Shown: positions 4,956 through 28,735 of the stretch, in pieces
Layout: the number at the start of each line of letters is the position of its first letter
Numbering within the stretch: the first letter of the stretch is position 1
Source: Bacteroidota bacterium
GTDB taxonomy: Bacteria; Bacteroidota; Bacteroidia; Bacteroidales; B39-G9
Assembly (NCBI GenBank): GCA_015222055.1
Contig: JADFUR010000039.1
Location: forward strand, 1 to 64,000
Reading direction: 5' to 3'
Length of the DNA: 64,000 nt
Position numbers and translations under genes: made by a program
The notes under the pieces: generated by a model
Databases searched by the model: none
The model's input: the letters and a program-made list of their open reading frames with translations, nothing else
What the model was told of the DNA's origin: nothing

Positions 4956-7808
4956 ATGAAATTCTTTTTAGAGACATTTTTGGTATTTTTTTTATTCCTA
5001 AAGTCATTATTTCTTTTTGCTGAGGATGAAAAGCCCTTTATTATAAATTTTACAAAAGAGGTTTATAGGGCTGGTGATCAGAATTGGTCGTTATCAATTG
5101 ATGATGAAGGAATAGTCTTTTTCGCAAATAACAAAGGATTACTTGAATTTGACGGGTCAAACTGGTTTTTACAAAAAATGCCGGAAGGTGAAGCTCTCCG
5201 GGCTGTATTTGCTGAAGAAAAAAATAGGATTTATGTTGGGGCTTATGAAGAATTTGGATATTGGAAAAAAAATATTAATGGAGAAAAAACATATTTTTCT
5301 TTAAGCAATTCTCTTACAACCGAAGCATTTCATAATGATGAAATTTGGAAAATAATATCATTAAATGATGATATCTATTTTCAATCATTCTCGAAAATTT
5401 TTAAATATGACGGTAAAAAAATTACAATTATTGATCCTAAATCTTCAATAGTTTTTTTATTAAAAGCCAGAAATCGTTTATTTATTCAACTTATTGGAAA
5501 AGGCTTATATGAATTAAAAAATGATAAGTTGGTTTTGTTAAAAGGTAGTGAGTTTTTAGCAAATGATGAAGTTAAATTTGTACTCCCATTTAGGGATAAT
5601 GATTTTTTAATTGGTGCAAGCAAAAATGGAATTTTAGTATATGACAATTTTAATTTTTCAGCAATAAAAACTCCAATTGCTAAACGTATTCGCGATTCAA
5701 AGATTAATAACGGTATTGTATTAGAAAATAAATTTGCTATTGGAACAATAACAAATGGGATTTTTATAATTACAGAAGATGGTGATTTTCAAAATCATTT
5801 AAATACTTCCGCCTGTCTTCAAAACAATACAGTATTAGGCTTAAAAGCAGATTCTAAAAATAATTTATGGGTAGCTTTAGATAGAGGAATCGATTACGTT
5901 GAGATGAATAGTATGATTGATTTTTACGTTGATCCATTTTATAAAATAGGAGCTGTTTATGCCGCTGTTCTTAAAAATAATGACCTTTGGATTGGTACTA
6001 ATAAAGGCTTGTATAAATATGTTTTCGATAATAAAAAGCAAATTTATATTAATACAGGAATGATAGATGGCTCACAAGGTCAGGTTTTGGATTTGTATAT
6101 TATCGACAATGAAATTTTATGCGGGCACACTAACGGAACCTATTCATTAAAGGGTGGAAACTTTAAAAAAATTAGCGATTTTAATGGAGCTTACGATTTT
6201 AAGAAGATTAGTTTTAATGGAGAAGAGATATTGCTGCAAAGCACTTATAGTAATCTTGTTGTTTATAAAAAAAGTAAAAATGGCTGGAGGTTTTCAAATT
6301 TTATAGATGGATTTATTGAACCAATACCCGATATTGAACAAGATAATTTTGGGAATTTTTGGGCAGCACATCTAAAAAAAGGAGTTTTTAAATTTAAATT
6401 AAACAATAATCTTGATAAAATTCAGAATATTAAATATTATGTAGAAAAAAACGGGTTTAAAAACGATAAAGAAATACAAATTTCAAAAATTGACAATCGA
6501 ATAGTTTTTACAAACGGCAGTATAGTTTACACATACGATGATTTAAACGATACAATAATACCATATAAAAATATAAACGAACAATTTGAAGAAAATGTTG
6601 AAATAAAAAAAATAATACAGATTGATGAAAATTATTATTGGTTTGTTACACAAAATAATATTTCGTTATTCTTAAAAGATAATGAAATATTTAAACAAAA
6701 ATTTTCTTATAATTTATACCGACAAGGATTTTATTTATCTGCAGATTATCCTAAAATTATCTCTCTTAAAAATAATTATAATCTTATATGTCTAGACAAG
6801 GGCTTTGCATTATTTCATTTTAAAAAAGATTTAATTAATAATTTGCCAGATAAGTTGTTAATGAGGAAAATAATTATTTTTAATAATAAAAATGTTAAGA
6901 AATTTCTTCCTCTAAATTCAATTAAGAATAATGAAATTCCTTTTTCTTTTAGGAATATAAAATTTGTTTATTCTAGTTCTGAAATAACAAAAAAACCTTT
7001 ATATAGATATAAAATAAAAGGATTAAATGAAAATTTCAGCAACTGGTCCAGTAAATCGTATACCGAAATTAATAGATTGCCTTATGGTAAATATAAGTTT
7101 GTTGTGCAATCAAAGACAGTTGAAAATAATTTTTTAGATCCATTAGTTTACTCATTTGAAATTTTACCCCCTTTTTATTTTAATACTATTTCTTTTGTAA
7201 TATATGGTTTTATTATATTTTTTTTATTGCTATTTGGCATTATAAGTTTTAAAAGGATTTTAAAAAAAAATAAGCGAAAAGTAGAAAAGTTTGAAAAAGA
7301 AAAAAGAGAGCAAGAGTTACTTAAAAGCAAACAAAAATATGTTGATTTGAAAAACAAAAATCTTCAATCGGAATTATACTATAAGAATATTCAACTTGCA
7401 AATCATGCAATCATTATTTCAAATAGAAATGATTTACTCATTAAGATTAAAAAAAATATTAATAATCTTAAAAAAGAAATGGGAGGTAGGCTTCCAGATT
7501 CTTTTTATAAGAAACAAATTAGTCTTTTAAATTCGCATATCTCAAGTGATGATGAATGGAAAACTTTTGAAGGTTATTTTGACCAAATACATCAAGATTA
7601 TTTTAAACGACTTATTTCTCAATATTCAGATCTTACACAAAGTGATTTAAAACTATGTGCATATTTAAGATTAAACCTATCTTCAAAAGAAATAGCTTCT
7701 CTTTTAAATATTTCTCTTAGAGGCGTAGAAGCCCGAAGGTATAGATTAAGAAAAAGATTAAATTTTGAACACGATAAAAATCTTGTTGAATTTTTACTTA
7801 AAATTTAA
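4956..7808 (+). CDS. Triple-Y type membrane regulator of the PUL (propeller, Y_Y_Y, LuxR-like HTH)
   Basis: 950 residues. A signal peptide (about 1-22) precedes a periplasmic beta-propeller of Reg_prop-like repeats (GIVFFANNKGLLEFDG, LWVALDRGIDYVE, DLWIGTNKGLYKY). A Y_Y_Y domain follows at about 665-735 (YRYKIKGLNENFSNWS), then one transmembrane helix at about 743-766 and a basic coiled coil. The C-terminal HTH at about 890-945 is of the LuxR/GerE type (SSKEIASLLNISLRGVEARRYRLRKRL). There is no HisKA, ATPase or receiver domain, so the protein should bind DNA directly from the membrane. It is encoded just upstream of susC on the same strand, the usual place for a PUL regulator. The likely signal is a periplasmic oligosaccharide of the substrate imported here. 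Confidence 0.9.
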   Translation: MKFFLETFLVFFLFLKSLFLFAEDEKPFIINFTKEVYRAGDQNWSLSIDDEGIVFFANNKGLLEFDGSNWFLQKMPEGEALRAVFAEEKNRIYVGAYEEFGYWKKNINGEKTYFSLSNSLTTEAFHNDEIWKIISLNDDIYFQSFSKIFKYDGKKITIIDPKSSIVFLLKARNRLFIQLIGKGLYELKNDKLVLLKGSEFLANDEVKFVLPFRDNDFLIGASKNGILVYDNFNFSAIKTPIAKRIRDSKINNGIVLENKFAIGTITNGIFIITEDGDFQNHLNTSACLQNNTVLGLKADSKNNLWVALDRGIDYVEMNSMIDFYVDPFYKIGAVYAAVLKNNDLWIGTNKGLYKYVFDNKKQIYINTGMIDGSQGQVLDLYIIDNEILCGHTNGTYSLKGGNFKKISDFNGAYDFKKISFNGEEILLQSTYSNLVVYKKSKNGWRFSNFIDGFIEPIPDIEQDNFGNFWAAHLKKGVFKFKLNNNLDKIQNIKYYVEKNGFKNDKEIQISKIDNRIVFTNGSIVYTYDDLNDTIIPYKNINEQFEENVEIKKIIQIDENYYWFVTQNNISLFLKDNEIFKQKFSYNLYRQGFYLSADYPKIISLKNNYNLICLDKGFALFHFKKDLINNLPDKLLMRKIIIFNNKNVKKFLPLNSIKNNEIPFSFRNIKFVYSSSEITKKPLYRYKIKGLNENFSNWSSKSYTEINRLPYGKYKFVVQSKTVENNFLDPLVYSFEILPPFYFNTISFVIYGFIIFFLLLFGIISFKRILKKNKRKVEKFEKEKREQELLKSKQKYVDLKNKNLQSELYYKNIQLANHAIIISNRNDLLIKIKKNINNLKKEMGGRLPDSFYKKQISLLNSHISSDDEWKTFEGYFDQIHQDYFKRLISQYSDLTQSDLKLCAYLRLNLSSKEIASLLNISLRGVEARRYRLRKRLNFEHDKNLVEFLLKI

Positions 7809-7896
7809 GTAGCTTTTTTAATTATTCAATACCAATAATATCCGAATTTTTAAAATATTGATTTTTAGAACTTTAGCAACGTAATTTCTTTGTTTA

Positions 7897-7995
7897 TAGT
7901 AGTATTGTCGTAGTGGTTTTTACTGCTATTTTTGTTCCTATAGTAAATTTGTAGTAGTATATTATTTTTATTTCCAATCTTATAGTAATAAATTT
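7897..7995 (+). promoter_or_regulatory. Candidate promoter/operator of the PUL (repeated TAGTAGTAT and TATAGTAAATTT)
   Basis: In the 245 bases between the regulator and susC, TAGTAGTAT occurs at 7897-7905 and again at 7952-7960. TATAGTAAATTT (7939-7950) is echoed by TATAGTAATAAATTT (7981-7995). The first of these holds TAAATTTG at 7944-7951, a full match to the Bacteroidota -7 box TAnnTTTG, which would leave a leader of about 95 bases. No good -33 TTG lies 19-21 bases upstream. The direct repeats could be binding sites for the upstream regulator; this is inference. Confidence 0.35.
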
Positions 7996-8053
7996 ACTTA
8001 AAAATATTGTAGGTGGATTTTCTAATATCATATTATTAAAATTAAGCTAAAAG

Positions 8054-11053
8054 ATGATGCAACAAACAATGAAAATAAAATTTATTAAAAGATTAGCATT
8101 ACTTCTTCTTTTTTCGTTTTACATACAATTTAGTTATGCACAAGAAAAATCTATATCCGGAAGAGTTTTAGACTTTAACACTGGAGAATCGTTACCGGGG
8201 GCAAATATAATTGTAAAAGGAACCAACAATGGTACTACATCTGATTTTGATGGATTTTTTAAGTTTAATATAAGTGATGATGACAAAATTTTGTTAGTTT
8301 CATTTATTGGCTACGAAATTTATGAAACACCTATAGATAACAGGTCTAATTATATAGTTAGATTAAAATCACAAGATCTTTCGATAGATGAAGTGGTTGT
8401 TATCGGATATGGCTCAGTAAAAAAGAGTGATTTAACCGGCTCTGTAAGTTCTGTAAAGGGTGATGATTTAACAAAAATTCCGGCAGCTTCAATTGAACAA
8501 TCATTACATGGTAAAGTTGCAGGTCTTCAGGTTTCAAATATTTCAGGTGCTCCCGGGAGTATTCCTGTATTAAGAATACGAGGTGTAGGAACACTAAATA
8601 ATTCTTCACCAATTTTTGTTGTTGATGGAATTATATTAGATGATATTAGCTTTTTAAACAGTGCTGATATTGAATCTATTGAAGTTTTAAAAGATGCTTC
8701 GGCAACTGCAATTTATGGTTCGAGAGGTGCTAATGGTGTTATTATTATAACTTCTAAATCGGGGAAATCAGGAGAGGGTACTACTTTTAATTTTTCTTCG
8801 GAATACAGTATGCAATTTTTACAAAAAAGGATTGATCTCCTTTCTGGCTCTGAATTTGCTCGAGTAGTGAATCAAATAAACCCAGGAACATTTAATAATA
8901 TTGATTTAGTTGCAAATACAGATTGGCAAAATCAAGTTTTTGAAAATAACACACCTCTTTTAAATATTCAATTTTCTTTTTCAGGATCTACTAAAGATAA
9001 ATATAATTACTACTTTGGTGTAGGCTATTTCGATCAGCAGGGAGTTATTCCAAAATCAGATTATAACAGAATTACAGCTAAGCTTAATCAAACGTACTTT
9101 TTTACAAAAAAAATAAAAATTGGTAGTAATCTTTCATTATCATCAGAAAAAAGAAATAATGCAGCAAATGTAATATCTCAAATATATAGGGCGTGGCCAA
9201 GCTCTCTTCCTATAAATGAAGACGGTAGCTTTGCCGAAGTAAACGGCTCTGGTAATCCATTAGCTTCTATAAGTTACAATAATTCGAATTACGATAAATT
9301 AAGATCGGTTGGTAATCTTTATGCAGATTTCAAATTTTTAAAATACTTTGTTTTTAAATCGAGTATAGGATTTGACTTGGGATACGGTAAATCAAAGAAC
9401 TTTGCACCTATCTATTATGTCTCCCCAACACAACAAAATGTAACAAATGATTTAACAGTATATAATGATGAGTTCTTTACATGGTTGTGGGAGAATACTT
9501 TAAATTTTGATTATTCAATTGAAAATCATAATATAAATATATTGGGAGGTTATACAATGCAAAAAATGACCTTTGAAAACCTTGGAGGAAGTGTACAAAA
9601 TTTATCAGGAAACGATCCTTCTCTTTGGTATTTAAATGCAGGAGAAACTCCAACTCAACGAAGTTTTAATTCAGGTTCTGCTTCATCAATGATTTCATAT
9701 TTATTCAGAGCTAACTATTCATACAGCAGTAAATATTTAATAACAGCATCTTTAAGATCTGATGGTTCTTCAAAATTTAGTAAAAGCAATAGATTTGGTT
9801 ATTTTCCTTCATTTGCTTTAGGATGGAATTTATCAAAAGAAGATTTTTTTCCTAAAAATAAAATTATGGAAAAGCTTAAACTGCGTGCCAGCTGGGGTAA
9901 AATTGGTAACGAAAAAATTCCTCAAAACGAACGTTTCGCACTTGTCTCAAATGTAGAAAATGCAGTATTCGGAATTGATGAAAAATTAATCGCGGGTGCT
10001 TCATTAGGAAATACAGCTAATCCAAATCTTAGATGGGAAACGACAACTCAAACAGATATTGGTGTTGAAATGGGATTTTTAAAAGATAAGATAAAAGCTG
10101 AAATAGATTTTTTTGATAGAAAAACAGAAGATATTTTAGTTGGCGTTTCTATTCCTGGATATTTTGGAAATGGAGCCTTTGTAAGAGTAATTACTAATGC
10201 CGCCGACATAAGAAATCAGGGTGTAGAATTTAATCTTGGCTTACATAGTAATATCGGGAATATAAAAGCGTCTTTCAATGCAAATGGATCTATAATTAAA
10301 AACGAAGTTCTAAAACTTGCTTCTACTACAGGAGACGATTCATTTATTTCAGGAGGTAATTTAAGTAATGGACAACAAGTAACAAGAACTGAAGTTGGAG
10401 AACCTATTGGTTCATTTTATGGATACGAGGTTATTGGAATAATTCAAAATCAAAATGAACTGGATAATTCCGCAATAGTTTCTGGTCAAGAAATTGGAGA
10501 TTTGAAATTTAAAGATATTGATAATAATGGTATTATTGATGCTGCAGACAGAACTTATCTAGGGTCTCCAATTCCTGATTTTATTTTTGGATTTAGTACT
10601 TCTTTAAAATACAAACAACTATCACTAACGATAGATTTGCAGGGACAAACAGGAAATAAAATATACAATGGCAAAAATGCAGTAAGACCGGATTTATACA
10701 ATTTCGAATCAAGAGTTAAAGACCGTTGGCATGGTGAAGGAACTTCAAACTCTGAACCTCGTGCTACTGCAAGTGGAGCCAATTATAGTGCTTCAAGTTA
10801 TTTTATTGAAGATGGATCTTTTTTAAGATTAAGGAATGTTTCACTACAATATTCATTCAAACCCGAAAGCCTTAGTAAATTTAAAATTAGTCAGTTAAAT
10901 GTTTACATTAAAGGTACAAACTTATATACTATTTCAAAATTTTCAGGATACTCTCCTGAAATAGGAAGCAATGACGTTATTTCATCGGGAATTGACTTTG
11001 GATCATATCCTGTAACAGCAGTAATTTCATTTGGGATGTCCTGTAAATTTTAA
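8054..11053 (+). CDS. SusC/RagA-family TonB-linked outer-membrane importer
   Basis: 999 residues. The signal peptide ends at about residue 30 (FSYAQEKS). A CarboxypepD_reg-like domain follows (ISGRVLDFNTGESLPGANI), then the SusC phrase DEVVVIGYGSVKKSDLTGS and the plug with VPVLRIRGVGTLNN-like text and DGIILDDISF, ASATAIYGSRGANGV. The large barrel ends VISFGMSCKF. ATGs at 8054, 8057 and 8069 are all possible starts; the third still leaves a complete signal peptide. It forms the import pore with the SusD protein encoded 47 bp downstream. In this locus the cargo is inferred to be beta-1,2-gluco-oligosaccharides. Confidence 0.95.
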   Translation: MMQQTMKIKFIKRLALLLLFSFYIQFSYAQEKSISGRVLDFNTGESLPGANIIVKGTNNGTTSDFDGFFKFNISDDDKILLVSFIGYEIYETPIDNRSNYIVRLKSQDLSIDEVVVIGYGSVKKSDLTGSVSSVKGDDLTKIPAASIEQSLHGKVAGLQVSNISGAPGSIPVLRIRGVGTLNNSSPIFVVDGIILDDISFLNSADIESIEVLKDASATAIYGSRGANGVIIITSKSGKSGEGTTFNFSSEYSMQFLQKRIDLLSGSEFARVVNQINPGTFNNIDLVANTDWQNQVFENNTPLLNIQFSFSGSTKDKYNYYFGVGYFDQQGVIPKSDYNRITAKLNQTYFFTKKIKIGSNLSLSSEKRNNAANVISQIYRAWPSSLPINEDGSFAEVNGSGNPLASISYNNSNYDKLRSVGNLYADFKFLKYFVFKSSIGFDLGYGKSKNFAPIYYVSPTQQNVTNDLTVYNDEFFTWLWENTLNFDYSIENHNINILGGYTMQKMTFENLGGSVQNLSGNDPSLWYLNAGETPTQRSFNSGSASSMISYLFRANYSYSSKYLITASLRSDGSSKFSKSNRFGYFPSFALGWNLSKEDFFPKNKIMEKLKLRASWGKIGNEKIPQNERFALVSNVENAVFGIDEKLIAGASLGNTANPNLRWETTTQTDIGVEMGFLKDKIKAEIDFFDRKTEDILVGVSIPGYFGNGAFVRVITNAADIRNQGVEFNLGLHSNIGNIKASFNANGSIIKNEVLKLASTTGDDSFISGGNLSNGQQVTRTEVGEPIGSFYGYEVIGIIQNQNELDNSAIVSGQEIGDLKFKDIDNNGIIDAADRTYLGSPIPDFIFGFSTSLKYKQLSLTIDLQGQTGNKIYNGKNAVRPDLYNFESRVKDRWHGEGTSNSEPRATASGANYSASSYFIEDGSFLRLRNVSLQYSFKPESLSKFKISQLNVYIKGTNLYTISKFSGYSPEIGSNDVISSGIDFGSYPVTAVISFGMSCKF

Positions 11054-11100: not shown

Positions 11101-12597
11101 ATGAATACAAATCTAATTAAAAATAAGTATAAAATTTTCACTTGTTTTCTACTTTTAATTATCGTTATAAATATAGGATGTGATAAAGATTTTTTAGAAG
11201 AGAAACCTCAAGGTATTACAACAGAAACTACTTTTCTGAAAAATTCAGGAGATGCTGTTTTAGCCACCAATGCGATCTACAGTTCTGCACGTGAATGGAA
11301 TTTTTATTCAGGAGGATATCCAATTTTAGATGTAATGTCTGACGATGCTGTTAAAGGAAGTAACCCTGGTGATGGAGCATTTCTTAATTTATTTGATAGG
11401 TTTCAGTTTACTTCTGAAATTGGTGATGTTAGTCGTTGGTATTCTGCTTTATACAAATGTGTTAGACGATCTAATATAGTGATTGAAAGAGTGCCTGAGA
11501 TTGATATGGATGGAAAATTAAAGAACAGATTAATAGCTGAAGCAAAATTTTTTAGAGCTTTTTCTTATTTCCAACTTATCAAAGCATTTGGAGATGTGCC
11601 TGAAGTTACAATTGAAAATCCTCCTTACAACTTAATAAGAACAGATAAAAATAAAATATATCAGGATATAATTATAAAAGATTTAGAATTTGCTATTGAA
11701 TTTTTACCCTTTAAAGATAAGTATGGTTCTGCTGATATTGGACGCATTACAAAAGGTGCTGCAGGAACTTTATTAGCTGATGTTTATTTGTTCAGAAACG
11801 ATTTTGTAAATTCTGAGAAATATGCATTACAAGTTATTGAATCAATGAAATACGACCTTGAAGATAATTATTCTGATGCATTTTCAATTAAAGGACAACA
11901 TGGAATTGAATCTGTTTTTGAAATTGCAGCATTACCTGAAGAAAATCCTACTTTAGGAGGAAATCAATATGCAAATACTCAAGGTGTAAGAGGAACACCC
12001 AACAGGGGATGGGGATTTAACAGACCTTCAATGGATTTAATAAATTCTTTTGAAGAAAAAGATATTAGAAAAGATGCAACAATAATATTTCTTAATGAAG
12101 TAATAGACGGAATTACTATTGTTGGGGATAGAACAACTCCAGATATTACATATACTGACGAAACTAATACTGTTATAAAAGAAATGGAAACTTATAATCA
12201 AAAAGTATGGGTTTCTGGTTCAACAACTGTTGAAGAATGGGGTTATAATGTTAGAATTTATAGGTATGCTGAAGTTTTACTTATTGCAGCTGAAGCATTA
12301 AACGAAAATGGAAATCAACCTCTGGCATTAGATTATTTAAATAAAGTTCGTAAAAGAGCAGGATTAGATGATTCAGATATTATTGATAAAGAGATTTTAA
12401 GAAACCAAATTTGGAAAGAAAGAAGGCTCGAACTAGCTTTAGAATGCAAAAGATATTTTGATCTTATTAGACAAGATCGTGCTTACAATATTCTTGGGGA
12501 TAAGGGATTTATTAAAGGTAAAAATGAACTCTTGCCTATTCCTCAAAATGAAATTGATTTATCAAACGGATTACTTAAGCAAAATCCAAAATGGTAA
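11101..12597 (+). CDS. SusD/RagB-family surface glycan-binding lipoprotein
   Basis: 498 residues. The lipobox ends at Cys in VINIGC and is followed by DKDFLEEKPQG, an acidic start typical of surface-exported lipoproteins in this phylum. Typical SusD text follows: AEAKFFRAFSYFQLIKAFGDVP, the TPR-like helices ending in EVLLIAAEALNENG, and a C-terminal LLPIPQNEIDLSNGLLKQNPKW, nearly the family consensus. It should act as the hinged lid on the SusC barrel and bind the oligosaccharide. The gene lies between susC and the LamG lipoprotein with short gaps, so one operon is expected. Confidence 0.95.
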   Translation: MNTNLIKNKYKIFTCFLLLIIVINIGCDKDFLEEKPQGITTETTFLKNSGDAVLATNAIYSSAREWNFYSGGYPILDVMSDDAVKGSNPGDGAFLNLFDRFQFTSEIGDVSRWYSALYKCVRRSNIVIERVPEIDMDGKLKNRLIAEAKFFRAFSYFQLIKAFGDVPEVTIENPPYNLIRTDKNKIYQDIIIKDLEFAIEFLPFKDKYGSADIGRITKGAAGTLLADVYLFRNDFVNSEKYALQVIESMKYDLEDNYSDAFSIKGQHGIESVFEIAALPEENPTLGGNQYANTQGVRGTPNRGWGFNRPSMDLINSFEEKDIRKDATIIFLNEVIDGITIVGDRTTPDITYTDETNTVIKEMETYNQKVWVSGSTTVEEWGYNVRIYRYAEVLLIAAEALNENGNQPLALDYLNKVRKRAGLDDSDIIDKEILRNQIWKERRLELALECKRYFDLIRQDRAYNILGDKGFIKGKNELLPIPQNEIDLSNGLLKQNPKW

Positions 12598-12648: not shown

Positions 12649-13866
12649 ATGAAAAAAATTAGTATTATTTTAATGCTTACAGCATTTCTTTTTTCTTTGA
12701 ATAGCTGTGATAAAGATGATGATCCAACTCCTTTAACATTAGTTAGCCTAAATGCAGGTGAAATTAATCTAAATGGTGTAGATGTTGCTTCTTCTGTTCC
12801 TGTTTCAACTACTATAGTTGCTACATTTTCAACTAATATTGATGCAGCAACTGCAACAACTTCAAACATTACTTTGAAAAGAACATTCGATTCTGAAAAT
12901 GTAGAATTTAACATTACCGTAGAAGAAAAAGTAATTACAATTACTCCATCAGAAGAGCTTTATGGTGGAGCTGCTTATGAATTAAAGGTAAACACCGGTC
13001 TTTTATCAACAGATGGTTTAGCTATTCCTGAATTCTCTCGTTCATTTATTACAATGGGTTCATTTGTTCCTTCAGGACAAATTGCTTACTGGAACTTTGA
13101 AGAAAATGCAAACGATATTGTAGGTGAATACGACCCAGCTGGAGCTGATATTATTGATATTGCTTATGTTCCTTCAAGAAATGAAAATGCAGGTACCGCA
13201 GCATCTTTTAATGGTTCTACTTCATTAATTGAAATTCCTGACGGTGACAAATTAATTACAAGCCAAGATTTTTCTATTGTATTTTGGGTTAAAACTGATT
13301 CTAAGGATAAAGAAACTTCTCATTTCGTTATGGGATGTGCTGGATGGTATGGTTTCCAATACGAACTTTTTTCAGATTATAAAGGAAGTAAATTCGCTTT
13401 TCAATATGCACTTGCTGAAGGATCAGCTTCTGAAGATATGTGGTTTCCTGCAAATGCTGACTTAGGATGGCAAGGTTGGAACTTTGCAAAAAGTTTAAAT
13501 GATGATGAAATGATTGCCTTATTAAAAGATAATTGGTTACATGTTGTTTATACATATAATGCAGCTGAAAAACAAGGTAAATTATTTTTCAATGGAGAAA
13601 AAATGAAAAGTTTTGATTTTAATTTATGGCCGGAAGAAGATGTTAAAACAGGTGTTACAGGCATTAAATATTCAGGAGATCCTGCAGGAAATAAATTTGC
13701 TTTAGGTTTTCTTCAAGGCAGAGAAAACAGAACAATAACTGATGATTGGGCAGATTATTCTAATCCTGCTAATAATCACTTTAAAGGTCAATTAGATGAT
13801 ATTCGTATTTTCCATAAAGCAATTACTGAAGATGAAATTGATTTAATGTATAAATCTGAGAAGTAA
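12649..13866 (+). CDS. Surface lipoprotein with Ig-like (Big_5) and LamG domains, probable glycan-binding protein
   Basis: 405 residues. The lipoprotein signal ends at SC and is followed by DKDDDPTP, a K-plus-acidic motif of the kind that sends lipoproteins to the cell surface in Bacteroidota. Residues about 27-135 resemble a Big_5 Ig-like domain (STTIVATFSTNIDAATATTSNITL). From about 145 to 400 there is a concanavalin/LamG_3 fold (IAYWNFEENANDIVGEYD, FSIVFWVKT, WLHVVYTYNAAEKQGKLFFNG, GQLDDIRIFHKAITEDEID). The third-position lipoprotein in a PUL is usually a surface glycan-binding protein, which fits here; I see no hydrolase motif. Its Ig module is like those in the next gene. Confidence 0.85.
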   Translation: MKKISIILMLTAFLFSLNSCDKDDDPTPLTLVSLNAGEINLNGVDVASSVPVSTTIVATFSTNIDAATATTSNITLKRTFDSENVEFNITVEEKVITITPSEELYGGAAYELKVNTGLLSTDGLAIPEFSRSFITMGSFVPSGQIAYWNFEENANDIVGEYDPAGADIIDIAYVPSRNENAGTAASFNGSTSLIEIPDGDKLITSQDFSIVFWVKTDSKDKETSHFVMGCAGWYGFQYELFSDYKGSKFAFQYALAEGSASEDMWFPANADLGWQGWNFAKSLNDDEMIALLKDNWLHVVYTYNAAEKQGKLFFNGEKMKSFDFNLWPEEDVKTGVTGIKYSGDPAGNKFALGFLQGRENRTITDDWADYSNPANNHFKGQLDDIRIFHKAITEDEIDLMYKSEK

Positions 13867-13888: not shown

Positions 13889-14001
13889 TAGAGGCTGTTA
13901 TAATAGATTGAAATTTGTTGTCGGATAGTGTAATAAAGTATTGTTCCATTAATCTGTTTTGTGAAAATATTTTGACGAATAATTTTTTATAACAGCCTCT
14001 A
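13889..14001. mobile_element. MITE-like element with 13-bp perfect inverted ends and TA duplication
   Basis: GAGGCTGTTATAA at 13891-13903 is the exact reverse complement of TTATAACAGCCTC at 13987-13999. Both ends are flanked by TA, giving 113 bases including the duplicated dinucleotide. There is no ORF inside. TA target duplication and short inverted ends fit a non-autonomous element of an IS630/Tc1-like group. The 3' end is followed by CTTTTT, so it could also terminate or attenuate transcription between the LamG gene and the first GH144 gene. Confidence 0.55.
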
Positions 14002-20600: not shown

Positions 20601-20818
20601 ATGGTGAGATTTCTTATAAAATAAAAAAAGATCAAAATGAATATCATTTTTCCATTTTTGGTGATGTAAAACTTCCAGAGAATGGAATTACAATAAAAAA
20701 TTTCAATGGTTCTAGATTACCTGTAAGTGTAACTATAAATGGAATAGAAAGCAAAGACTTTAATGAAAAGGAAATTGTTGTGGAAGAGTCTCCTGCTGAA
20801 GTTGTGATATATTATTAA
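17630..20818 (+). CDS. Secreted protein with CBM-like and F5/8C-like domains and an (alpha/alpha)6 catalytic-type domain
   Basis: 1062 residues. A signal peptide is cut near SIISAQ (residue 25). Residues about 26-185 resemble a beta-sandwich CBM (LDEFENNDGWNLI, IDNLKFKPL), and 190-325 an F5/8 type C/discoidin domain (FVVDSSNETFWQSRG, NFDILISNNAIDWEIV). A further beta region leads to a helical (alpha/alpha)6 domain at about 605-1000 with SWIRDGS (W638, D641), SYWDNFF (D772) and WNHWAEVVW (E923). WxRDG and YWDN are typical of inverting (alpha/alpha)6 glycoside hydrolases such as GH15, GH63 and GH94 relatives. I cannot assign a family. Location should be periplasmic, between GH144 and the symporter, so it probably trims or debranches beta-1,2-glucan fragments. 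Confidence 0.75.
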   Translation: MKTILIKIQAILVIVIFTTSIISAQTLILDEFENNDGWNLIKSDGVALSISNEKGLTNKAIRFDYDFTNGTGYAGIQKLFPIELPDNYELSFNIKAESLSNNFEIKFIDSTGNNVWWVNNRNYDFSSDWKKIRIKKRHIKFAWGSISDHCLKRIDRIEFTVSSFVGGKGTIWIDNLKFKPLKPEVDFYPTPLVKTSSFRKKYSPEFVVDSSNETFWQSRGVKNQFVMFDFTTNREFGGLQINWQKNHRAENFDILISNNAIDWEIVYSVRSNQSDVSFIKLTETEAKYLKVNLLKSNSPKGFGINRIKFLNIKNSLTTNDYLIYTAKNSSAGNYPRYFSNQASYWTIVGTNNDTKEALINEDGMVEVDKALFSIEPMIKIGSKLYNWENVKSSQSMSFPENSDKLNFTPSVTWLCDDLKFATGVSTYGKANINSKLNIAYFFKNTSEQSKDFEFYLLIRPFQVNPHYQFLNTIGGAGKIFSINEEEHGKKIIVDDKIILSAREYDFLKAGTFDNGNIVELIRNEKIQEKKSAYDKSGMANGVIKYSIHLDPGEQTKFFVVVPFHDVESVSNEISNESISKEFSETAEFWKSKVNHIKFNLPESANRIVNTYKSNLAYILINRDKAGIQPGSRSYERSWIRDGSLTSSALLKSGIVEEVKDFIEWYADYQYESGKVPCVVDLRGADPVPENDSHGQLIYLIREYFNFTQDTAFLKSKNKYVLNAVNYIESLIAERSTNHFKYGNDSLRAFYGLVPESISHEGYSAKPMHSYWDNFFIMKGLKDAAEIQKALGEEASYERIIKVRDTFKINLYNSLQLAMKTRKIDYIPGCVELGDFDATSTTIALSPCNELKNLPKPQIYNTFDKYYKFFKNRKDGNTKWINYTPYENRLIGSYIILDQPERAHELLEFFLNNQRPQGWNHWAEVVWNDYRTPRFIGDMPHTWVGSDFINAIRSMFVYENEYDQTLVLASALYQDWIDSPKGMSVENLPTYYGEISYKIKKDQNEYHFSIFGDVKLPENGITIKNFNGSRLPVSVTINGIESKDFNEKEIVVEESPAEVVIYY

Positions 20819-20841: not shown

Positions 20842-22923
20842 ATGAATCAATTTAAAAAAGTTGCAACTAAAGATAAAAAAAATGAAAATCATGTTAAATT
20901 TTCACAATTAGCAACCTATGGCTCAGGAGGAATAATACCAATAGCACTTTTTAACGTAGCAGGAATGCTCGTAGGACTAATGGGAAATATAAGTCTTGGG
21001 CTAAGTGCTTTTTGGTTAGGGTTGATATTAATCATACCGCGACTTTGGGATGCTGTATCGGATCCTATAGTTGGACACCTTACAGATAATGCACGTACCC
21101 GTTGGGGCAGACGTCGTCCTTTCATTCTAGTTGGAGGAATTTTAGTGGCAATATTTTTTGTTCTCATCTGGTGGATTCCAAAGGGCGAAATGGTGCGGGT
21201 TTGGTTTCCCTCTGAAAGTGGTTATCAGGTATTCCAACTTATCTATATTCTCATAACTCTTTTGCTGTTTTTTACGGCATGCACAATTTTTGAGATACCT
21301 CATGGTGCTCTTGGTATGGAAATGACTAATGATTCTCATGAACGAACACGCCTTTTTAGTGCAAAGAGTTTTATTGGAAATCTTTTTGCAATGAGCACTC
21401 CATGGTTATTTGCTCTTGCAAGTTTAGATATTTTTAAGGGACCCGGGGGTAATGAAATGGATGGTATGCGTTATGTATCCATACTTATAGCAGCTATAAT
21501 AATTCCTCTCTCAATTTGGTGGTTTTTTTCTTTGCGTGAACCTGGATTTAAAAAGCTTGCTAAACAGGAAAAAACACCCTTTTGGAAAAATATGAAACAT
21601 ACTGCCAGCAATAAAAATTTTATAATGTTAACGCTTACAATTTTTACTCTGGCAATGGGCTTTAATTTCGTTAATTTGCTGGGTTCTTACATTCCAATTT
21701 TTTATATTTTTGGAGGAGATAAAGTTGCAGGTGCATATTTATTAGGTATTAATGGTACTGTGTGGGCAATTACCGGATTACTTGCTGTTTTTCCTCTTAA
21801 CTGGATTAGTCCTAAACTTGGGAAGAGAAATACTCTCATTATTTCAATTTTGCTCATGTGCTTGGCACAACTTTCAAAAATTGTTTGTTACAATCCGTCA
21901 TATCCTTATTTAATAATTATTCCAACTGTTCTTCTTTCTGCAGGGATGTTGATTTTTTTTACACTTGGTTCTTCAATGGTTGGCGATATTTGTGATGAAG
22001 ATGAACTTAAAACAGGATGTAGAAGAGAAGGAAGCTTTTATTCTATTTTTTGGTGGTTTATTAAAATGGGAACAGCTCTTGCCAGTTTTGTTGCAGGAGC
22101 ATTAATTGTACTTACCCTTTTTGACCAAGATCAGGTAACTAAAGTTGATGATATACAAGGAAGTATAGGCGAAATGAATAGTATTGTGCAGACATGGGAA
22201 GGTGATACTACGCTTAACATTATAAACAAAGACCGGATTGGCAAAATAAATTCCCGGTATAATGATGCTTTAAAAGAGTCTAAAGATTATTTAATTTATC
22301 TTGATAAGGAATCCAAAAAATGGGAAAATCGGGAAGTGAAAAAAATTATAAAGTCCCAAAAACAAAAAAGAAAAATTTTGGCAAAAGCCAAGTCTGGAAC
22401 AAACTCAACGATTAGTGAGTTGGAGAAAATTCAGTATCAAATAAAAAGCATAGATGCTAAGAGTGAAGTTCTTCATATTAAAGCTATTAATAAAAAATTA
22501 ATTGCGCTCACTCTCCAAACTAAACTTGAAAAAGCTAGAATAAACGCTTTTAATCTTATGATGCATCTGGAAACGAAATCTGATGAAACCAAAAATAGCA
22601 GGGGGCATTATGATGAACTTATGCAAGATATTAGAGAAGTGAATAATCATCTTGCCAAAATGAACGCTTCAAAACCTTTAAAAGTCCTTGATAAAGAATT
22701 AAATGCAATTGAAGATAAAATTGTTCCTTTAAAGAAACAATCACCACATACTCTTTTAATGATGCGAATTGTAGAAATTGGTTTGCCATTATTACTAAGT
22801 ATTTTTTCAATCATCTTTGTTCTGCGTTATAAATTAACCGAAAAAAGATCGTATGAAATAAAAGAGCTTTTAAAGCAACGAAATATTAATAGTTTTAAAG
22901 AAAAAGATAATGCAATACTATAG
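20842..22923 (+). CDS. GPH/MFS sugar:cation symporter with a large helical insertion
   Basis: 693 residues; GPH-family transporters (MelB/LacS-like, sucrose type) are usually 450-500. The cytoplasmic loop 2-3 signature is clear: WDAVSDPIVGHLTDNARTRWGRRRPF. Later helices match the family, including MVGDICDEDELKTGCRREGSFYSIFWWFIKMG. After about residue 433, beyond the helix SFVAGALIVLTLF, come about 200 Lys/Glu-rich residues predicted as long helices or coiled coil (KKIIKSQKQKRKIL, ISELEKIQYQIKSIDAKSE). A last membrane helix follows near 640-660. Standard MFS topology puts this loop in the periplasm. The role inferred from position, 23 bp after the secreted hydrolase and 34 bp before GH35, is import of beta-1,2-gluco-oligosaccharides. 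Confidence 0.88.
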   Translation: MNQFKKVATKDKKNENHVKFSQLATYGSGGIIPIALFNVAGMLVGLMGNISLGLSAFWLGLILIIPRLWDAVSDPIVGHLTDNARTRWGRRRPFILVGGILVAIFFVLIWWIPKGEMVRVWFPSESGYQVFQLIYILITLLLFFTACTIFEIPHGALGMEMTNDSHERTRLFSAKSFIGNLFAMSTPWLFALASLDIFKGPGGNEMDGMRYVSILIAAIIIPLSIWWFFSLREPGFKKLAKQEKTPFWKNMKHTASNKNFIMLTLTIFTLAMGFNFVNLLGSYIPIFYIFGGDKVAGAYLLGINGTVWAITGLLAVFPLNWISPKLGKRNTLIISILLMCLAQLSKIVCYNPSYPYLIIIPTVLLSAGMLIFFTLGSSMVGDICDEDELKTGCRREGSFYSIFWWFIKMGTALASFVAGALIVLTLFDQDQVTKVDDIQGSIGEMNSIVQTWEGDTTLNIINKDRIGKINSRYNDALKESKDYLIYLDKESKKWENREVKKIIKSQKQKRKILAKAKSGTNSTISELEKIQYQIKSIDAKSEVLHIKAINKKLIALTLQTKLEKARINAFNLMMHLETKSDETKNSRGHYDELMQDIREVNNHLAKMNASKPLKVLDKELNAIEDKIVPLKKQSPHTLLMMRIVEIGLPLLLSIFSIIFVLRYKLTEKRSYEIKELLKQRNINSFKEKDNAIL

Positions 22924-22957: not shown

Positions 22958-25390
22958 ATGACATTTAGTATAAAAGAAGATTGTTTTTATCTTAACAACA
23001 AAAAGGTATTCCTGAATTCTGGTGAAATTCATTATTTCAGGATTAAGCGTGAGTTATGGGATAAGCATTTGCAAGCAGCCTGTGATGCAGGATTAACAAC
23101 AGTGAGTACTTATGTCCCCTGGGCATGGCATGAATCAACTGAAGGCGTTTTTGATTTTGATGGTATATCATGTCCTGAGCGAGATTTAAATGCGTGGCTT
23201 CAACTATGTAAGGAATATAATTTACATTGTATTTTAAAACCGGGACCATTTATTTTGGCGGAAACAAGGGGAGCAGGTCTTCCAGATTGGTTTCTGCATC
23301 AACACCAGAATGAGGTAAAGATGCACAACCGCAAAGGCGATATAGTTCAAAGTGATGGAGTTAGTCTTTTTAATAAAATTTATTTAGAAAAAGTTACACT
23401 GTGGTACGATCAAATCATGCCTTTTATTCGGGAACGTGAAATATCAAATGGTGGTCCGGTCATTATGATCCAAATTTGTAATGAGATAGGCGTATTTCCT
23501 TGGTTAGCACATCAGGGTGATTATAGCAAAGACGTGAATGTGCGTTTTATTTCTTACTTGAAAAATAAGTTTAGTAATATTACAGAAGTGAATCGTTTGT
23601 GGGGAAAAAGTTACAATCAGTTTGATGATATTGTACTGCCTCCTGATGGCAAGCTACCATATGAATCAAAAGAAGATCGTGCTCGAGACTATGAGTGGCA
23701 TTGTTTCTGGAGAACTTATTATGGCGATTATTTGAGAATGCTATGCAATATGGCTAGGGAAAGGGGAGTGACCGTTCCATTTTATCACAACCTACCGGGT
23801 TGGATATATGGTAGCGGGTATGAATTTCCGGTAAATATCACTATGTATGAAAATTTATATCAAGAAAAGAGTGAACTTATTTTTGGAGTTGATCATATTC
23901 CAGAATTCATGTCATATCGTAATATGCACGACGATCGCATTATAAACGATATAACATTTGCCATGCAAGGGAAAAAACCTCTTTTTGCTGCTGAATTTCA
24001 AAGTGGTTCTCGTGAATATCATGTAGTACCCAATCCACGAGAGATGGAGCTTTTTTATAAAGCAAGTATTGCCAATGGACTTTCCGGTTGGAACTACTAT
24101 ATGTTTTCACAAGGACATAACCAAAGGCAAAAAGGCTATTCTGGAGATACTTTCTATTGGTATTGTCCGCTCACTCCCGAAGGGAAACGTACAAGTGCTT
24201 TTCCCCTTGTAAAAAGAATGAGTAAGATTATTAAAACATCAGAACATATAATACTTAACGCAAAAAGAAAAGCAGAGGTATGTGTTCTTTTTTATCCGCC
24301 ATATTATGCAACAGAATTGGAAAGACCTGAAAATGGTAAAAGCGAACTTGAGTTTACTCCTGCAACAATTCGCAGAACAGCATATTTTGATGGATTACTA
24401 AAAGCTCTTCAGGTGCTAAATATAGACTATGATATGCTTGACCTTAGTAAAGCTTCTGTAGATAAATTAACCAAATATAAACAGGTCTGGGCTTTCACTA
24501 CAGACGAAATGAATGCCAAAGATCAACAAGTTATTGTTGATTATACTAAGGCAGGAGGAAATCTTATTATGTTCCCATATCTGCCCGACCGAGAGATGAA
24601 TCAGAATCCTTGCTCAATTATCCGAAAAGCTCTTTCGATTGAGCCAATGGGAAAAGAAATTATTGATTCTCCATTGGTTGATATTTATAATCTTAAAGAT
24701 ATTAAATGTGCAAATCCACAAATTGTTTACTCAAAAGAATCTCTTTTGGGAGCAAAAGTTATTGCAAAAACTATAAATGATACTATTTGTGGTTTCGAAA
24801 AAAATCTTGGTAAAGGATTATTTATCAATATTGGTACATGGTTTGGTTTTGATACAGAGGGGCATAGAGCCGTTTACGAAACAATTTTAAATAAATCAGA
24901 TGCGAAACTTAGACAATCATTCGTAGACAATGAAAATATTGCTGTAAGACAACGTTTCACTGATGATGATTCTGCTATTTTATTTATAGGAAATTACTAT
25001 AATGAAGAGTCTTGGGGTAAAATATCCTATACACATCCCCAAAGTGGAGAATTAGTAACAATTCCATATGCACAGGAGAAAATGCTTTTTCCTCCATTAT
25101 ATGCTATGTTAACTCCTATTTGCATTGATGTAATTGATGGGTTAAAAATTTTACATAGCACATCAGACATTATTAGTATTGAAGTGTTGGACGATAAATT
25201 CAATATTATTGTGTATGGAGATAGAGATTTGATTGGAGAAATTGTTCTGGAAGGCATTAACACAACTAAAGTAAAATCTGCAACAATTGATGGCGAAAAT
25301 ATTAATATTATTTGTCACAAAAATCGTATTGTGTTAAATTACAATCATAAACACAAAAAAGAAATGTTTTTAACTGTAAAAATTTGCTAG
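22958..25390 (+). CDS. GH35-family enzyme, probably acting on beta-1,2-gluco-oligosaccharides
   Basis: 810 residues without a signal peptide, so cytoplasmic. The N-terminal (beta/alpha)8 barrel starts with SGEIHYFRIKRELWDKHLQAACDAGLTTVSTYVPWAWHE, read here in pieces as a GH35 opening. The acid/base Glu is expected at E176 (QICNEIG) and the nucleophile at E346 (FAAEFQSG). About 430-620 is a flavodoxin-like middle domain (VCVLFYPPYYATEL, GGNLIMFPYLPD), then a beta-sandwich. Default annotation would be beta-galactosidase. However, it ends directly against the GH94 start codon and sits in a beta-1,2-glucan locus. From memory, at least one GH35 enzyme next to an oligoglucan phosphorylase (Ignavibacterium album) is a beta-1,2-glucosyltransferase, so that or a beta-1,2-glucosidase activity is more likely. 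Confidence 0.83.
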   Translation: MTFSIKEDCFYLNNKKVFLNSGEIHYFRIKRELWDKHLQAACDAGLTTVSTYVPWAWHESTEGVFDFDGISCPERDLNAWLQLCKEYNLHCILKPGPFILAETRGAGLPDWFLHQHQNEVKMHNRKGDIVQSDGVSLFNKIYLEKVTLWYDQIMPFIREREISNGGPVIMIQICNEIGVFPWLAHQGDYSKDVNVRFISYLKNKFSNITEVNRLWGKSYNQFDDIVLPPDGKLPYESKEDRARDYEWHCFWRTYYGDYLRMLCNMARERGVTVPFYHNLPGWIYGSGYEFPVNITMYENLYQEKSELIFGVDHIPEFMSYRNMHDDRIINDITFAMQGKKPLFAAEFQSGSREYHVVPNPREMELFYKASIANGLSGWNYYMFSQGHNQRQKGYSGDTFYWYCPLTPEGKRTSAFPLVKRMSKIIKTSEHIILNAKRKAEVCVLFYPPYYATELERPENGKSELEFTPATIRRTAYFDGLLKALQVLNIDYDMLDLSKASVDKLTKYKQVWAFTTDEMNAKDQQVIVDYTKAGGNLIMFPYLPDREMNQNPCSIIRKALSIEPMGKEIIDSPLVDIYNLKDIKCANPQIVYSKESLLGAKVIAKTINDTICGFEKNLGKGLFINIGTWFGFDTEGHRAVYETILNKSDAKLRQSFVDNENIAVRQRFTDDDSAILFIGNYYNEESWGKISYTHPQSGELVTIPYAQEKMLFPPLYAMLTPICIDVIDGLKILHSTSDIISIEVLDDKFNIIVYGDRDLIGEIVLEGINTTKVKSATIDGENINIICHKNRIVLNYNHKHKKEMFLTVKIC

Positions 25391-28300
25391 ATGATTATTA
25401 AAAATTCACATGGACTTATTTTTGAATTTCTGAATAATGGTTCAGTAAAAAGTATTGAAGTTGACCCAATAAGAATAAGTCTCGAATCAAGCTCGCCTTT
25501 TTCATTACTGGGGGCAAACATTTTTTTAAGAAAAAGAACAAAGCCTTACGAATATATTGCTTTAACAGGTTCTGAGAGCAATAGTGTTTTTAGCATTGTC
25601 GACGATAGATTTATGACCAAAGGCAGTTGGGCTAATCTTGATTATTTATGTTGTTTGCAACTATCAAAAAAAAGTCTAAGCTGGCAATGGAGTGTAGAAG
25701 TTAAAAATTTATCTGATAAAGATGTTGAGCTTGATTTAATTTACGTTCAAGATGCTGGACTGAAGTCAATAAATGAAGGATTAATCAACGAATATTATGT
25801 AAGTCAATATCTTGAAAGATTAATCCTAAAAGATAAAAAGTATGGTTCTGTAATATGCTGTCGTCAAAACATGCAGGAATTTGTTGGATATCCCTGGCTA
25901 ATGATGGCTTGTAAAAATGGAGCTGTAGCAGCAAGTGTTGATGGAATGCAATTTTATGGTAAAACATTCAGGGAAACCAGAATCCCTGAGGGATTGAAAT
26001 CAGATAAGCTTGGTGGTGAATATTCAGGGGAATCTTCAGTGCTTGCATTGCAGCAAAAACCTTTCAGCATAGCATCCGGGCAGATTAGTAACAGTGTTTT
26101 TGTTGCCACTTATTTTCCTAATCATCCAAAAGCAACGTCTGTTGATGATTTGAAAAGTCTTCCTGATCTTATGCTCGAATTTGATGATAAGATGACAATT
26201 GCTAGTAAGAAAAATTGGAAACTACCTATCAAAAATTTATTTAATACATCTCCATTTTTACCTGTTAACGATTTAAATGATAAAGAACTTAATTTGTTTT
26301 TTGGTAAAGAGAGACGTCATTATGAAAAGGAAAATGGTAAATTGTTATCGTTTTTTAGTGAGGAAAATAATCATGTTGTTTTGCGAGCCAAGGAAATCAT
26401 GGTGGATAGACCACATGGACATATTATGCAAGCTAAAACAGGACTCTTGCCTAATGAAAATATTGTTTCTACTAGCTCAAACGCTTATGGGGTATTCAAT
26501 TCACATCTAACACAAGGTAATACAAATTTTAATATTTTATTATCAGTTTGCAATAGTCAGTTCAATCTAGCACCGGAAACAGGTCAGCGTATTTTTGTGA
26601 AATTAAATAAGCAATATTATTTACTTGGTATTCCTTCTGCTTTTGAGATTGGTTTAAATCATTGCCGTTGGATATACAAATTTGGTGATTATTGTTTTCA
26701 AATCAGGACGTGGACCTCAAAATCTGCCCCACAGGTTAATCTTGATATTAAAGAGCTTTCGGGTAATAAAGTAGATTTGTTAATTACTCATCATTTTGAC
26801 AAAGCTAATAATTGGAATATTATTTCGGGCAATTCATCTGGTGAATATATTGCAAAACCGAAAGTTAACAGCATGATCTCTGGAAAATTTTCTAAGGCAC
26901 AGTTCCGAATAATTGTTCAGAGTAAAAATGCTAAATATAAAGCTTGTAATGATGAGGTATTATATAGCAATACTAAAAAAGAAGCAAACGAATTATTTGT
27001 CTTTGATGTGAATAAAACATCAAATTTTTGTATGAGTTTTATTGGTGAAGTATGTAATCGTGTAAACGAAATTGAAATTAATAATTCAGATAATCAATGG
27101 CTTTCAGATACTCGTGAAGGTCAGAATTTTTGGAATAAATTAAGCCTAAATTTATCTCTCAATGGAGAGCAAAAAGATGTTTCTGCTATCAATGAAATAT
27201 TGCCATGGTATGGAATGAATGCACTTACACATTTTTTAACACCCTATGGATTAGAACAATTTAGTGGAGCTGCTTGGGGTACTCGTGATGTTTCTCAAGG
27301 TCCAATCGATTTGTTGCTTAGTTTAGAAAAGTATGCAGAAGCAAGAAAATTATTACAAATTATATTCTCGAACCAGAATCCCGATGGCGGATGGCCACAG
27401 TGGTGGATGTTCGATAGTTATACAAATATTAGGGCTCAAGATGCTCATGGTGATGTTGCTTACTGGTGTATTATAGCCCTTAGTAAGTATATTAAAGTTA
27501 CTGGAGACCTGAATATTATTGATGATTTTTTACCTTATTACAATGAAAATGCTCTTGACAATAATGAAAAAACACCACTTAGCGAACATGTAGAACGTCT
27601 TATTAAAATGATTGTTGATTCGTTTATCCCTGGCACTGCTTTGGTTCCCTATGGCGGTGGCGACTGGAACGATTCATTGCAACCCGTAAGTAAAGAATTG
27701 GCTAAGCGTATGATATCAAGCTGGACTGTTGAAATGAATTACCAGGCTTTTGATCAATATAAAGAGGTATATAAGATTACCGGTAATACAGAAAAAGCGA
27801 ATGAGTTAAAAGTGATTTGTGAAAAGATTAAAGCCGATTTTAATAAATATTTAATAAAGGATGGCGTGGTTGCAGGATATGGTCTGATTGAAGATAATGG
27901 CAGTATCAGCGTTTTGCTTCATCCTACAGACCAAAAAACTGGTATTCATTACAGTATTTTACCAATGAATCGTGGTATTATAAGTGGAATTTTTTCAAAA
28001 GAACAAGTTATTCAACATCAGGAATATACCGAACAACATCTTAAAGGACCCGATGGTGCTCGTTTAATGGATCATCCGCTCGAATACAGAGGCGGAATTC
28101 AAACTATTTTTCAAAGAGCAGAAAGTAGCACTTTTTTTGGACGTGAGATTGGACTTATGTATGTACATGAGCATATCCGTTATGCAGAATCACTTGCAAT
28201 TACAGGTAAAGCAGATGCTTTTGTGAAAGCACTTCGACAAGCAATTCCGGTTGATTACAAGGATATTGTACCATGTGGAGATGTTCGACAATCAAATTGT

Positions 28301-28735
28301 TACTACAGCAGTTCTGATGTCGTTTTTAAAAATCGTTACGATGCTTATAACCGCTACGATGAAATTAAAACGGGAAAGATTACTCTAAGAGGTGGTTGGA
28401 GAGTTTATTCAAGTGGTCCCGGCATTTATATTGGGATTATTATTTCACGTTTAATAGGTTTGCGTACTGCTTTTGAAAATACAATTTTAGATCCCGTAAT
28501 TTCACATTCATTAAATAATTTTTCAGCAACAATAGATTATTTGGGGCATAATTTAACTTTTATTTATGAAGTAAGAAATGATTGTTTTAGCCCAAAAGAA
28601 ATTATTATTAACGATAAAAAGCTTAATTTTAAATATGAGGATAATCAGTATCGTAAAGGAGGTGCTGTTATTTTAACCAGTCAATTTTTATCTATGGCAG
28701 ATAAAAAAAATAATATTATCAAGATAATACTATAA
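25391..28735 (+). CDS. GH94 enzyme, probable 1,2-beta-oligoglucan phosphorylase
   Basis: 1114 residues, no signal peptide. The length is essentially that of characterised 1,2-beta-oligoglucan phosphorylases (about 1113 residues), larger than cellobiose phosphorylase. The C-terminal (alpha/alpha)6 barrel carries GLEQFSGAAWGTRDVSQGPID, FSNQNPDGGWPQWWMFDS, AQDAHGDVAYWCI and the general-acid segment YGGGDWNDSLQPV with Asp at residue 758, then HPTDQKTGIHYSILPMNRG. Expected reaction: phosphorolysis of beta-1,2-glucan oligosaccharides in the cytoplasm, giving alpha-glucose 1-phosphate and a shortened chain. The ATG at 25391 follows the GH35 TAG without a gap, so the two are translationally linked. 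It is the last gene of the PUL. Confidence 0.9.
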   Translation: MIIKNSHGLIFEFLNNGSVKSIEVDPIRISLESSSPFSLLGANIFLRKRTKPYEYIALTGSESNSVFSIVDDRFMTKGSWANLDYLCCLQLSKKSLSWQWSVEVKNLSDKDVELDLIYVQDAGLKSINEGLINEYYVSQYLERLILKDKKYGSVICCRQNMQEFVGYPWLMMACKNGAVAASVDGMQFYGKTFRETRIPEGLKSDKLGGEYSGESSVLALQQKPFSIASGQISNSVFVATYFPNHPKATSVDDLKSLPDLMLEFDDKMTIASKKNWKLPIKNLFNTSPFLPVNDLNDKELNLFFGKERRHYEKENGKLLSFFSEENNHVVLRAKEIMVDRPHGHIMQAKTGLLPNENIVSTSSNAYGVFNSHLTQGNTNFNILLSVCNSQFNLAPETGQRIFVKLNKQYYLLGIPSAFEIGLNHCRWIYKFGDYCFQIRTWTSKSAPQVNLDIKELSGNKVDLLITHHFDKANNWNIISGNSSGEYIAKPKVNSMISGKFSKAQFRIIVQSKNAKYKACNDEVLYSNTKKEANELFVFDVNKTSNFCMSFIGEVCNRVNEIEINNSDNQWLSDTREGQNFWNKLSLNLSLNGEQKDVSAINEILPWYGMNALTHFLTPYGLEQFSGAAWGTRDVSQGPIDLLLSLEKYAEARKLLQIIFSNQNPDGGWPQWWMFDSYTNIRAQDAHGDVAYWCIIALSKYIKVTGDLNIIDDFLPYYNENALDNNEKTPLSEHVERLIKMIVDSFIPGTALVPYGGGDWNDSLQPVSKELAKRMISSWTVEMNYQAFDQYKEVYKITGNTEKANELKVICEKIKADFNKYLIKDGVVAGYGLIEDNGSISVLLHPTDQKTGIHYSILPMNRGIISGIFSKEQVIQHQEYTEQHLKGPDGARLMDHPLEYRGGIQTIFQRAESSTFFGREIGLMYVHEHIRYAESLAITGKADAFVKALRQAIPVDYKDIVPCGDVRQSNCYYSSSDVVFKNRYDAYNRYDEIKTGKITLRGGWRVYSSGPGIYIGIIISRLIGLRTAFENTILDPVISHSLNNFSATIDYLGHNLTFIYEVRNDCFSPKEIIINDKKLNFKYEDNQYRKGGAVILTSQFLSMADKKNNIIKIIL

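Follow-up and report, generated by a model that had tools for sequence, protein, structure and literature searches.

In many bacteria, beta-1,2-glucans serve as factors of symbiosis and virulence, but how these polymers are broken down is only partly known. A 1,2-beta-oligoglucan phosphorylase (SOGP) needs chains of at least three units and leaves sophorose. How could a cell without a beta-glucosidase of glycoside hydrolase families GH1 or GH3 make use of that sophorose? The question is raised by a locus at positions 4956-28735 of the window, by which we mean the whole 64,000-nucleotide stretch analyzed here (positions 1-64000 of contig 3 in a 3.75 Mb Bacteroidota assembly that is 98.6% complete). 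Judged by its genes, the locus is a SusCD-type beta-1,2-glucan utilisation locus, a new arrangement of a known system type, with adjacent SusC and SusD, degradative enzymes and a regulator. We consider it reasonably likely that the locus acts on beta-1,2-glucan, that its GH35 protein and its SOGP-type GH94 protein dispose of sophorose by a transfer cycle, and that a further protein, here called protein X, is an active inverting glycosidase on the same polymer. The locus thereby offers a testable answer to the question of sophorose use in cells lacking GH1 or GH3 beta-glucosidases.

Enzymes that point to beta-1,2-glucan

The GH94 protein carries the complete SOGP domain set, comprising N-terminal, supersandwich, C-terminal and GH94 core domains (PF21958, PF21250, PF21270 and PF17167). 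Both this protein and the GH35 protein were placed by score gaps and by residues compared in alignments to PDB structures. LpSOGP (5h3z) matches the GH94 protein at 596 bits over nearly its full length, and any other solved GH94 at no more than 41 bits. The LpSOGP residues named as binding glucose, phosphate and sophorose (PMC5309861) are all kept, namely R630, D631, W758, D760, E917, Y922, H924, S1005, Y141 and R907 (the chain index in the LpSOGP alignment is the native number plus 1). Their counterparts R632, D633, W759, D761, E919, Y924, H926, S1007, Y136 and R909 are invariant in 19 orthologues. These results support the predicted identity of the GH94 protein as an SOGP (EC 2.4.1.333). The first-pass annotation of this DNA had made the same assignment and set it against a place among the disaccharide phosphorylases, such as those of cellobiose; because of the score gap and the kept, invariant residues, the protein falls outside that group. 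Domain set and substrate residues are common to the locus protein and LpSOGP/Lin1839, however, Lin1839 adjoins the GH3 beta-glucosidase Lin1840, whereas the locus protein stands behind an IaSGT-type GH35.

The assembly has two PF10091 proteins, GH144a and GH144b, both in the locus. CpSGL and XcSGL are proven beta-1,2-glucanases. GH144a matches CpSGL and a close structure at 540-579 bits and keeps CpSGL D135, D139, E142 and E211, while GH144b matches XcSGL best (8xul, 349 bits) and keeps E239, F286 and Y367. The residues that define the SGL clan (PMC12102758) are present: the acid Glu (CpSGL E211, XcSGL E239), an acidic residue at CpSGL E142, and XcSGL F286 and Y367, the latter two mapped on GH144b and placed by eye on GH144a. 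Their lipoprotein starts suggest a surface position for GH144a (CNKQDEE) and a periplasmic one for GH144b (CNQPNQ); the CpSGL and XcSGL subtypes stand side by side in one locus and differ in their predicted compartments. These matches and residues support the earlier naming of both proteins as beta-1,2-glucanases, and beta-1,2-glucan as the substrate and its phosphorolytic use are likewise supported at the level of sequence.

The GH35 protein resembles a glucosyltransferase

A GH144 neighborhood does not by itself settle the role of a GH35 protein, since Bxy_22780, a GH35 beta-1,2-galactosidase, also lies beside a GH144 gene (PMC11739564). We therefore checked the residues of the locus protein, the assembly's sole GH35. 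Its best match is IaSGT (7vkw) at 522 bits, and the next group, the archaeal GlmA type, reaches 229 bits. On these scores (at most 229 bits versus 522) we rejected a role as beta-galactosidase or glucosaminidase. In IaSGT numbering, Y52, L100, E102, N175, E176, N275, E343, R349 and Y378 are invariant in 54 sequences including the locus protein, with Asn at position 175 as opposed to the Asp of GlmA. The aglycone pocket (L100, V179, F180 and L183) is kept across the same set, except that V179 is Leu in two sequences. IaSGT and the locus protein are 38% identical, both are without a signal peptide, and they have all catalytic, -1 and +1 residues in common.

Subsite +2 is different. IaSGT has Q106, F391 and Y392, where the locus protein has Ala, Tyr and Ser, and the same changes are found in nearly all Bacteroidota copies (Q106A in 52/54, F391Y in 53/54 and Y392S in 52/54). 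Residues of this subsite tune acceptor use and are outside the catalytic definition of the IaSGT type. The differences may nevertheless matter, because subsite +2 is where a mild clash in IaSGT disfavors sophorooligosaccharides as acceptors. IaSGT passes a glucose unit from one beta-1,2 chain to another and does not act as a hydrolase (PMC8861115). The residue comparison indicates that the locus protein is most likely an IaSGT-type beta-1,2-glucosyltransferase that acts by transfer instead of glucose release, and because it groups with IaSGT it would not by itself free glucose hydrolytically. The first-pass annotation had final breakdown running through GH35 hydrolysis, which is not borne out, and the role of this protein is to be revised from hydrolysis to transfer.

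Protein X is a conserved partner of GH144

Most other parts of the locus are of known types. Protein X is the most novel of all and the one that merits bench work, a candidate new enzyme family that can be put to the test. It had been noted earlier as an unassigned (alpha/alpha)6 protein; it does remain without a family, but that reading missed its weight as a conserved, cross-phylum partner of GH144. Sequence and profile searches of X returned only an F5/8 type C module and an N-terminus resembling carbohydrate-binding module family 11 (CBM11), along with a weak NCBIfam oligosaccharide-amylase match, and a PHROGs search returned nothing. Public annotation calls it a 'discoidin domain-containing protein', and among the papers available for searching none mentions proteins of that name together with glycoside hydrolases and beta-1,2-glucan.

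We modeled X with AlphaFold2 using 63 relatives (predicted local distance difference test, pLDDT, 91; predicted template-modelling score, pTM, 0.89), and residues 310-1062 alone gave pLDDT 92.4 and pTM 0.93. Foldseek matched the model in the PDB to GH94 cellobiose phosphorylase, GH15 dextran dextrinase, cyclic glucan synthase and GH116, with template-modelling (TM) scores of at most 0.60 by query length and no more than 13% identity to any of the 50 best matches. A supersandwich followed by an (alpha/alpha)6 core is common to X, GH15 (dextran dextrinase 9ju0, glucodextranase 1ug9) and GH94 (cellobiose phosphorylase), yet the core of X corresponds to no family in Pfam or NCBIfam. X itself had no Glyco_hydro_15 match above cut-off (hhalign probability 25), while 1/48 relatives matched at E 0.009; there was no Pfam match to GH94 (hhalign probability 63, E 7e-5), and none to PF10091 of the GH144/SGL clan (hhalign probability 0.6). 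Profile, Pfam and fold searches show distant kinship only, and we rejected GH15, GH94, GH144 and the rhamnosidase six-hairpin family as assignments for X.

Five motifs of X fall in GH15 order by eye: WIRDG (638-642), SHEGY (758-762), DFDAT (834-838, taken with G833), WAEVVW (921-926) and GDMPHTW (936-942). Nine carboxylates are invariant in 67 sequences (D641, E689, D691, E760, D772, D834, D836, E923 and D937), and hand alignment of the motifs predicts E760 as the acid and E923 as the base. A carboxylate at the predicted base position, together with export of the protein, argues for a hydrolase and not a phosphorylase. X is a candidate for a glycoside hydrolase family of its own, with a role in beta-1,2-glucan metabolism.

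Close relatives of X occur in 3/60 near genomes and in 0/395 genomes sampled evenly across the class. Scanning the GTDB species genomes yielded 106 relatives, of which 80 were kept; they are mostly from Bacteroidota metagenome-assembled genomes, with others in Ignavibacteria, Planctomycetota, Phycisphaerae and Pseudoxanthomonas gei. In loci found through X itself, GH144b is the direct upstream neighbor in 61 of the 72 with upstream sequence, and a GPH symporter follows X in 57 of the 69 with downstream sequence. A GH144 homologue is present in 68/69 X loci of at least 10 kb, the sole exception being cut close upstream of X. GH144b and X are fused in a single ORF in two loci (L054 and L093). 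The association also reaches Proteobacteria, on plasmids: one of Xanthomonas sacchari carries LacI, a TonB receptor, GH144, an ATP-binding cassette (ABC) transporter and X, and on one of Croceibacterium GH144 and X overlap by 4 nt. On a Methylosinus plasmid (L128:5972-12430) a distant X, which lacks an obvious signal peptide, adjoins an SOGP-type GH94, with a GH15 protein near. An ABC transporter near this X was considered as a cyclic glucan exporter and rejected, as it is an ABC_membrane_2/SbmA-type protein. As a separate observation, a relative's locus joins GH3 and GH144b in a single ORF (L083:6387-9980).

Proposed pathway and alternatives

The GH94 ATG directly abuts the GH35 stop codon with zero gap. 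Among related loci GH35 is upstream of the SOGP-type GH94 in 44/44, and in three checked loci (this one, L022 and L024) the two genes abut or overlap by 4 nt; gap lengths across the 44 loci are biased small, the start having been set at whichever Met lay closest to the stop. Among genomes sampled evenly across the phylum, SOGP-type GH94 occurs in 0/395 and IaSGT-type GH35 in 2/395 other genomes, which puts the pairing far from chance. Since the gene order of the locus also recurs in dozens of further genomes, its gene set is not a chance assembly either. The sole GH3 of the assembly is NagZ-like, fused to a beta-lactamase-type domain and on a different contig. The first-pass claim that a GH3 beta-glucosidase is absent is therefore true of the locus and, for practical purposes, of the whole assembly, and we rejected a hidden GH3 or GH1 beta-glucosidase elsewhere in the genome, where none is of fitting type. 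GH3 proteins near related loci mostly have a signal peptide, and therefore would not meet cytosolic sophorose. With no GH1, a NagZ-type GH3 only and strict GH35-SOGP pairing, we infer a cycle of transfer plus phosphorolysis.

Families, residues, synteny and fold are what we observed; where the proteins are located, how sophorose is cycled and whether X is active are inferred. We propose that GH144a cuts the polymer at the surface, that fragments are imported via SusCD and trimmed in the periplasm by GH144b and X, and that oligosaccharides reach the cytosol via the GPH symporter. SOGP would phosphorolyse chains of at least three units to glucose 1-phosphate (G1P) and sophorose, the latter a dead end for SOGP. 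The IaSGT-type GH35 would clear sophorose by transfer (2 sophorose -> sophorotriose + glucose), and SOGP would then act on the product with inorganic phosphate, Pi (sophorotriose + Pi -> sophorose + G1P), giving a net reaction of sophorose + Pi -> glucose + G1P. Three phosphoglucomutase-family proteins in the assembly could take up the G1P. Protein X, with its GH15/GH94-type fold and no named family, would be an active inverting glycosidase with the same polymer as its substrate.

Several points weigh against this pathway. IaSGT shows weak sophorose disproportionation, with a Km of 120 mM, and favors alkyl or aryl glucoside acceptors (PMC8861115), so the cycle requires better sophorose use by locus-type GH35 orthologues. 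GH1 and fitting GH3 beta-glucosidases were not found in the assembly, with GH5, GH30 and GH116, for example, not searched, and the acid and base of X come from hand motif alignment beside a weak GH15/GH94 profile comparison. The lack of another GH1 or GH3 beta-glucosidase and a +2 subsite unlike that of IaSGT would both suit a GH35 that is a true beta-1,2-glucosidase, hydrolysing sophorose and ending the pathway alone. We find this unlikely, as its nearest characterized protein, IaSGT, does not hydrolyse (PMC8861115) and the catalytic, -1 and +1 residues of that enzyme are all kept. Transfer coupled to SOGP is more likely than hydrolysis. A non-catabolic GH35, making beta-1,2-glucosylated glycosides in the cytosol with imported sophorose as donor, is similarly doubtful: the preference of IaSGT for alkyl and aryl glucosides (PMC8861115) and the kept L100, V179, F180 and L183 pocket speak for it, but strict pairing with SOGP, abutting or overlapping where checked, points to catabolism.

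For X, the natural substrate could be a cyclic, alpha-1,6-cyclised or substituted beta-1,2-glucan, which X opens or undecorates before or beside GH144b. Fusion to GH144b in two relatives fits this idea, as does a fold in common with GH15 dextran dextrinase and glucodextranase, enzymes that act on alpha-1,6 links. However, the fold is equally close to GH94 phosphorylases of beta links and does not alone give the linkage, and while we take this substrate to be possible, we lean against it. It seems very improbable that X has no catalytic role and serves for binding or as a scaffold, with carbohydrate-binding modules and a dead barrel; it has two binding-type modules at its N-terminus, but the nine barrel carboxylates are invariant across several phyla. 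We favor X as an active inverting glycosidase. A broader proposal, which we hold tentatively and judge to fall just short of evenly balanced, is that X founds a new beta-1,2-glucan hydrolase family with a GH15/GH94-type barrel, whose members accompany GH144 or SOGP in Bacteroidota, Ignavibacteria, Planctomycetota and Proteobacteria. X would perform a step no known enzyme covers, such as opening alpha-1,6-cyclised glucan or an exo-cut, and SOGP with GH35 would form the beta-1,2 counterpart of MalQ and maltodextrin phosphorylase.

Comparison with known systems

GH144 loci occur across Bacteroidetes (PMC6499787), and Ignavibacterium album has a beta-1,2-glucan cluster, IALB_1177-1187 (PMC8861115). 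The Ignavibacterium cluster and this locus have in common a GH144 pair, a GH35 glucosyltransferase, a GH94 phosphorylase homologue and TonB-dependent uptake. In contrast, the former has an ABC transporter and a GH94 resembling the C-terminal domain of cyclic glucan synthase, whereas the latter has SusCD, a GPH symporter and X, and its long SOGP comes straight after GH35. The proposed logic common to this locus and the alpha-1,4-glucan enzymes MalQ and maltodextrin phosphorylase is that a transferase rescues the disaccharide unusable by the phosphorylase; enzymes and linkage differ, and the likeness is put forward as an analogy.

Layout of the locus and its surroundings

The first-pass annotation had described a ten-gene, one-strand run with named families, and ORF positions, which retain the coordinates as first read, agree with it, as do Pfam and NCBIfam, from which the families were assigned (Table 1).

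Table 1. Predicted genes of the locus, with positions in the window
Feature	Position	Strand	Assignment	Basis
Regulator	4956-7808	+	Signal peptide, propeller, Y_Y_Y, membrane segment, coiled coil, LuxR/sigma4-like helix-turn-helix (HTH)	Pfam Reg_prop, Y_Y_Y, Sigma70_r4_2; sequence
SusC	8054-11053	+	SusC-type TonB-dependent outer-membrane transporter	TIGR04056, 830 bits
SusD	11101-12597	+	SusD-type surface lipoprotein	PF07980, PF14322
LamG lipoprotein	12649-13866	+	Surface glycan-binding lipoprotein (Big_5 + LamG); mature start CDKDDD, acidic surface-export-type signal	Pfam, N-terminus
GH144a	14069-16045	+	CpSGL-type endo-beta-1,2-glucanase, Big_5 domains, probable surface lipoprotein; TTG start	PF10091, residues, N-terminus
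GH144b	16191-17573	+	XcSGL-type beta-1,2-glucanase lipoprotein without acidic export signal, probably periplasmic	XcSGL match
Protein X	17630-20818	+	Secreted candidate glycosidase, 1062 residues; CBM-like N-terminal module, F5/8 type C module, supersandwich, (alpha/alpha)6 core	
GPH symporter	20842-22923	+	GPH-type (MFS_2) cation symporter, oligosaccharides	PF13347, TIGR00792
GH35	22958-25390	+	IaSGT type, predicted cytosolic beta-1,2-glucosyltransferase	7vkw match, residue mapping
GH94	25391-28735	+	SOGP type, 1114 residues	SOGP_N, SOGP_2nd, SOGP_4th; 5h3z match, kept residues

In the GPH symporter, a long soluble stretch is inserted ahead of the final membrane segment, and ORF length in its relatives varies from about 600 to 700 residues. 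Between the LamG gene and GH144a, positions 13889-14001 hold 21-nt inverted repeats, 71 nt apart and 90% complementary, that resemble a miniature inverted-repeat transposable element. Directly past GH94, a group II intron D1-D4 structure was detected on the + strand (28851-29029; RF02001, 41.7 bits), with no intron reverse transcriptase seen adjoining. A tetratricopeptide repeat protein with a LuxR-type HTH lies on the - strand at 28999-30687, convergent to the locus. It is followed on the + strand (31098-39480) by a Sortilin/BNR-repeat protein and a C25 peptidase of the gingipain type, each bearing a type IX secretion tail.

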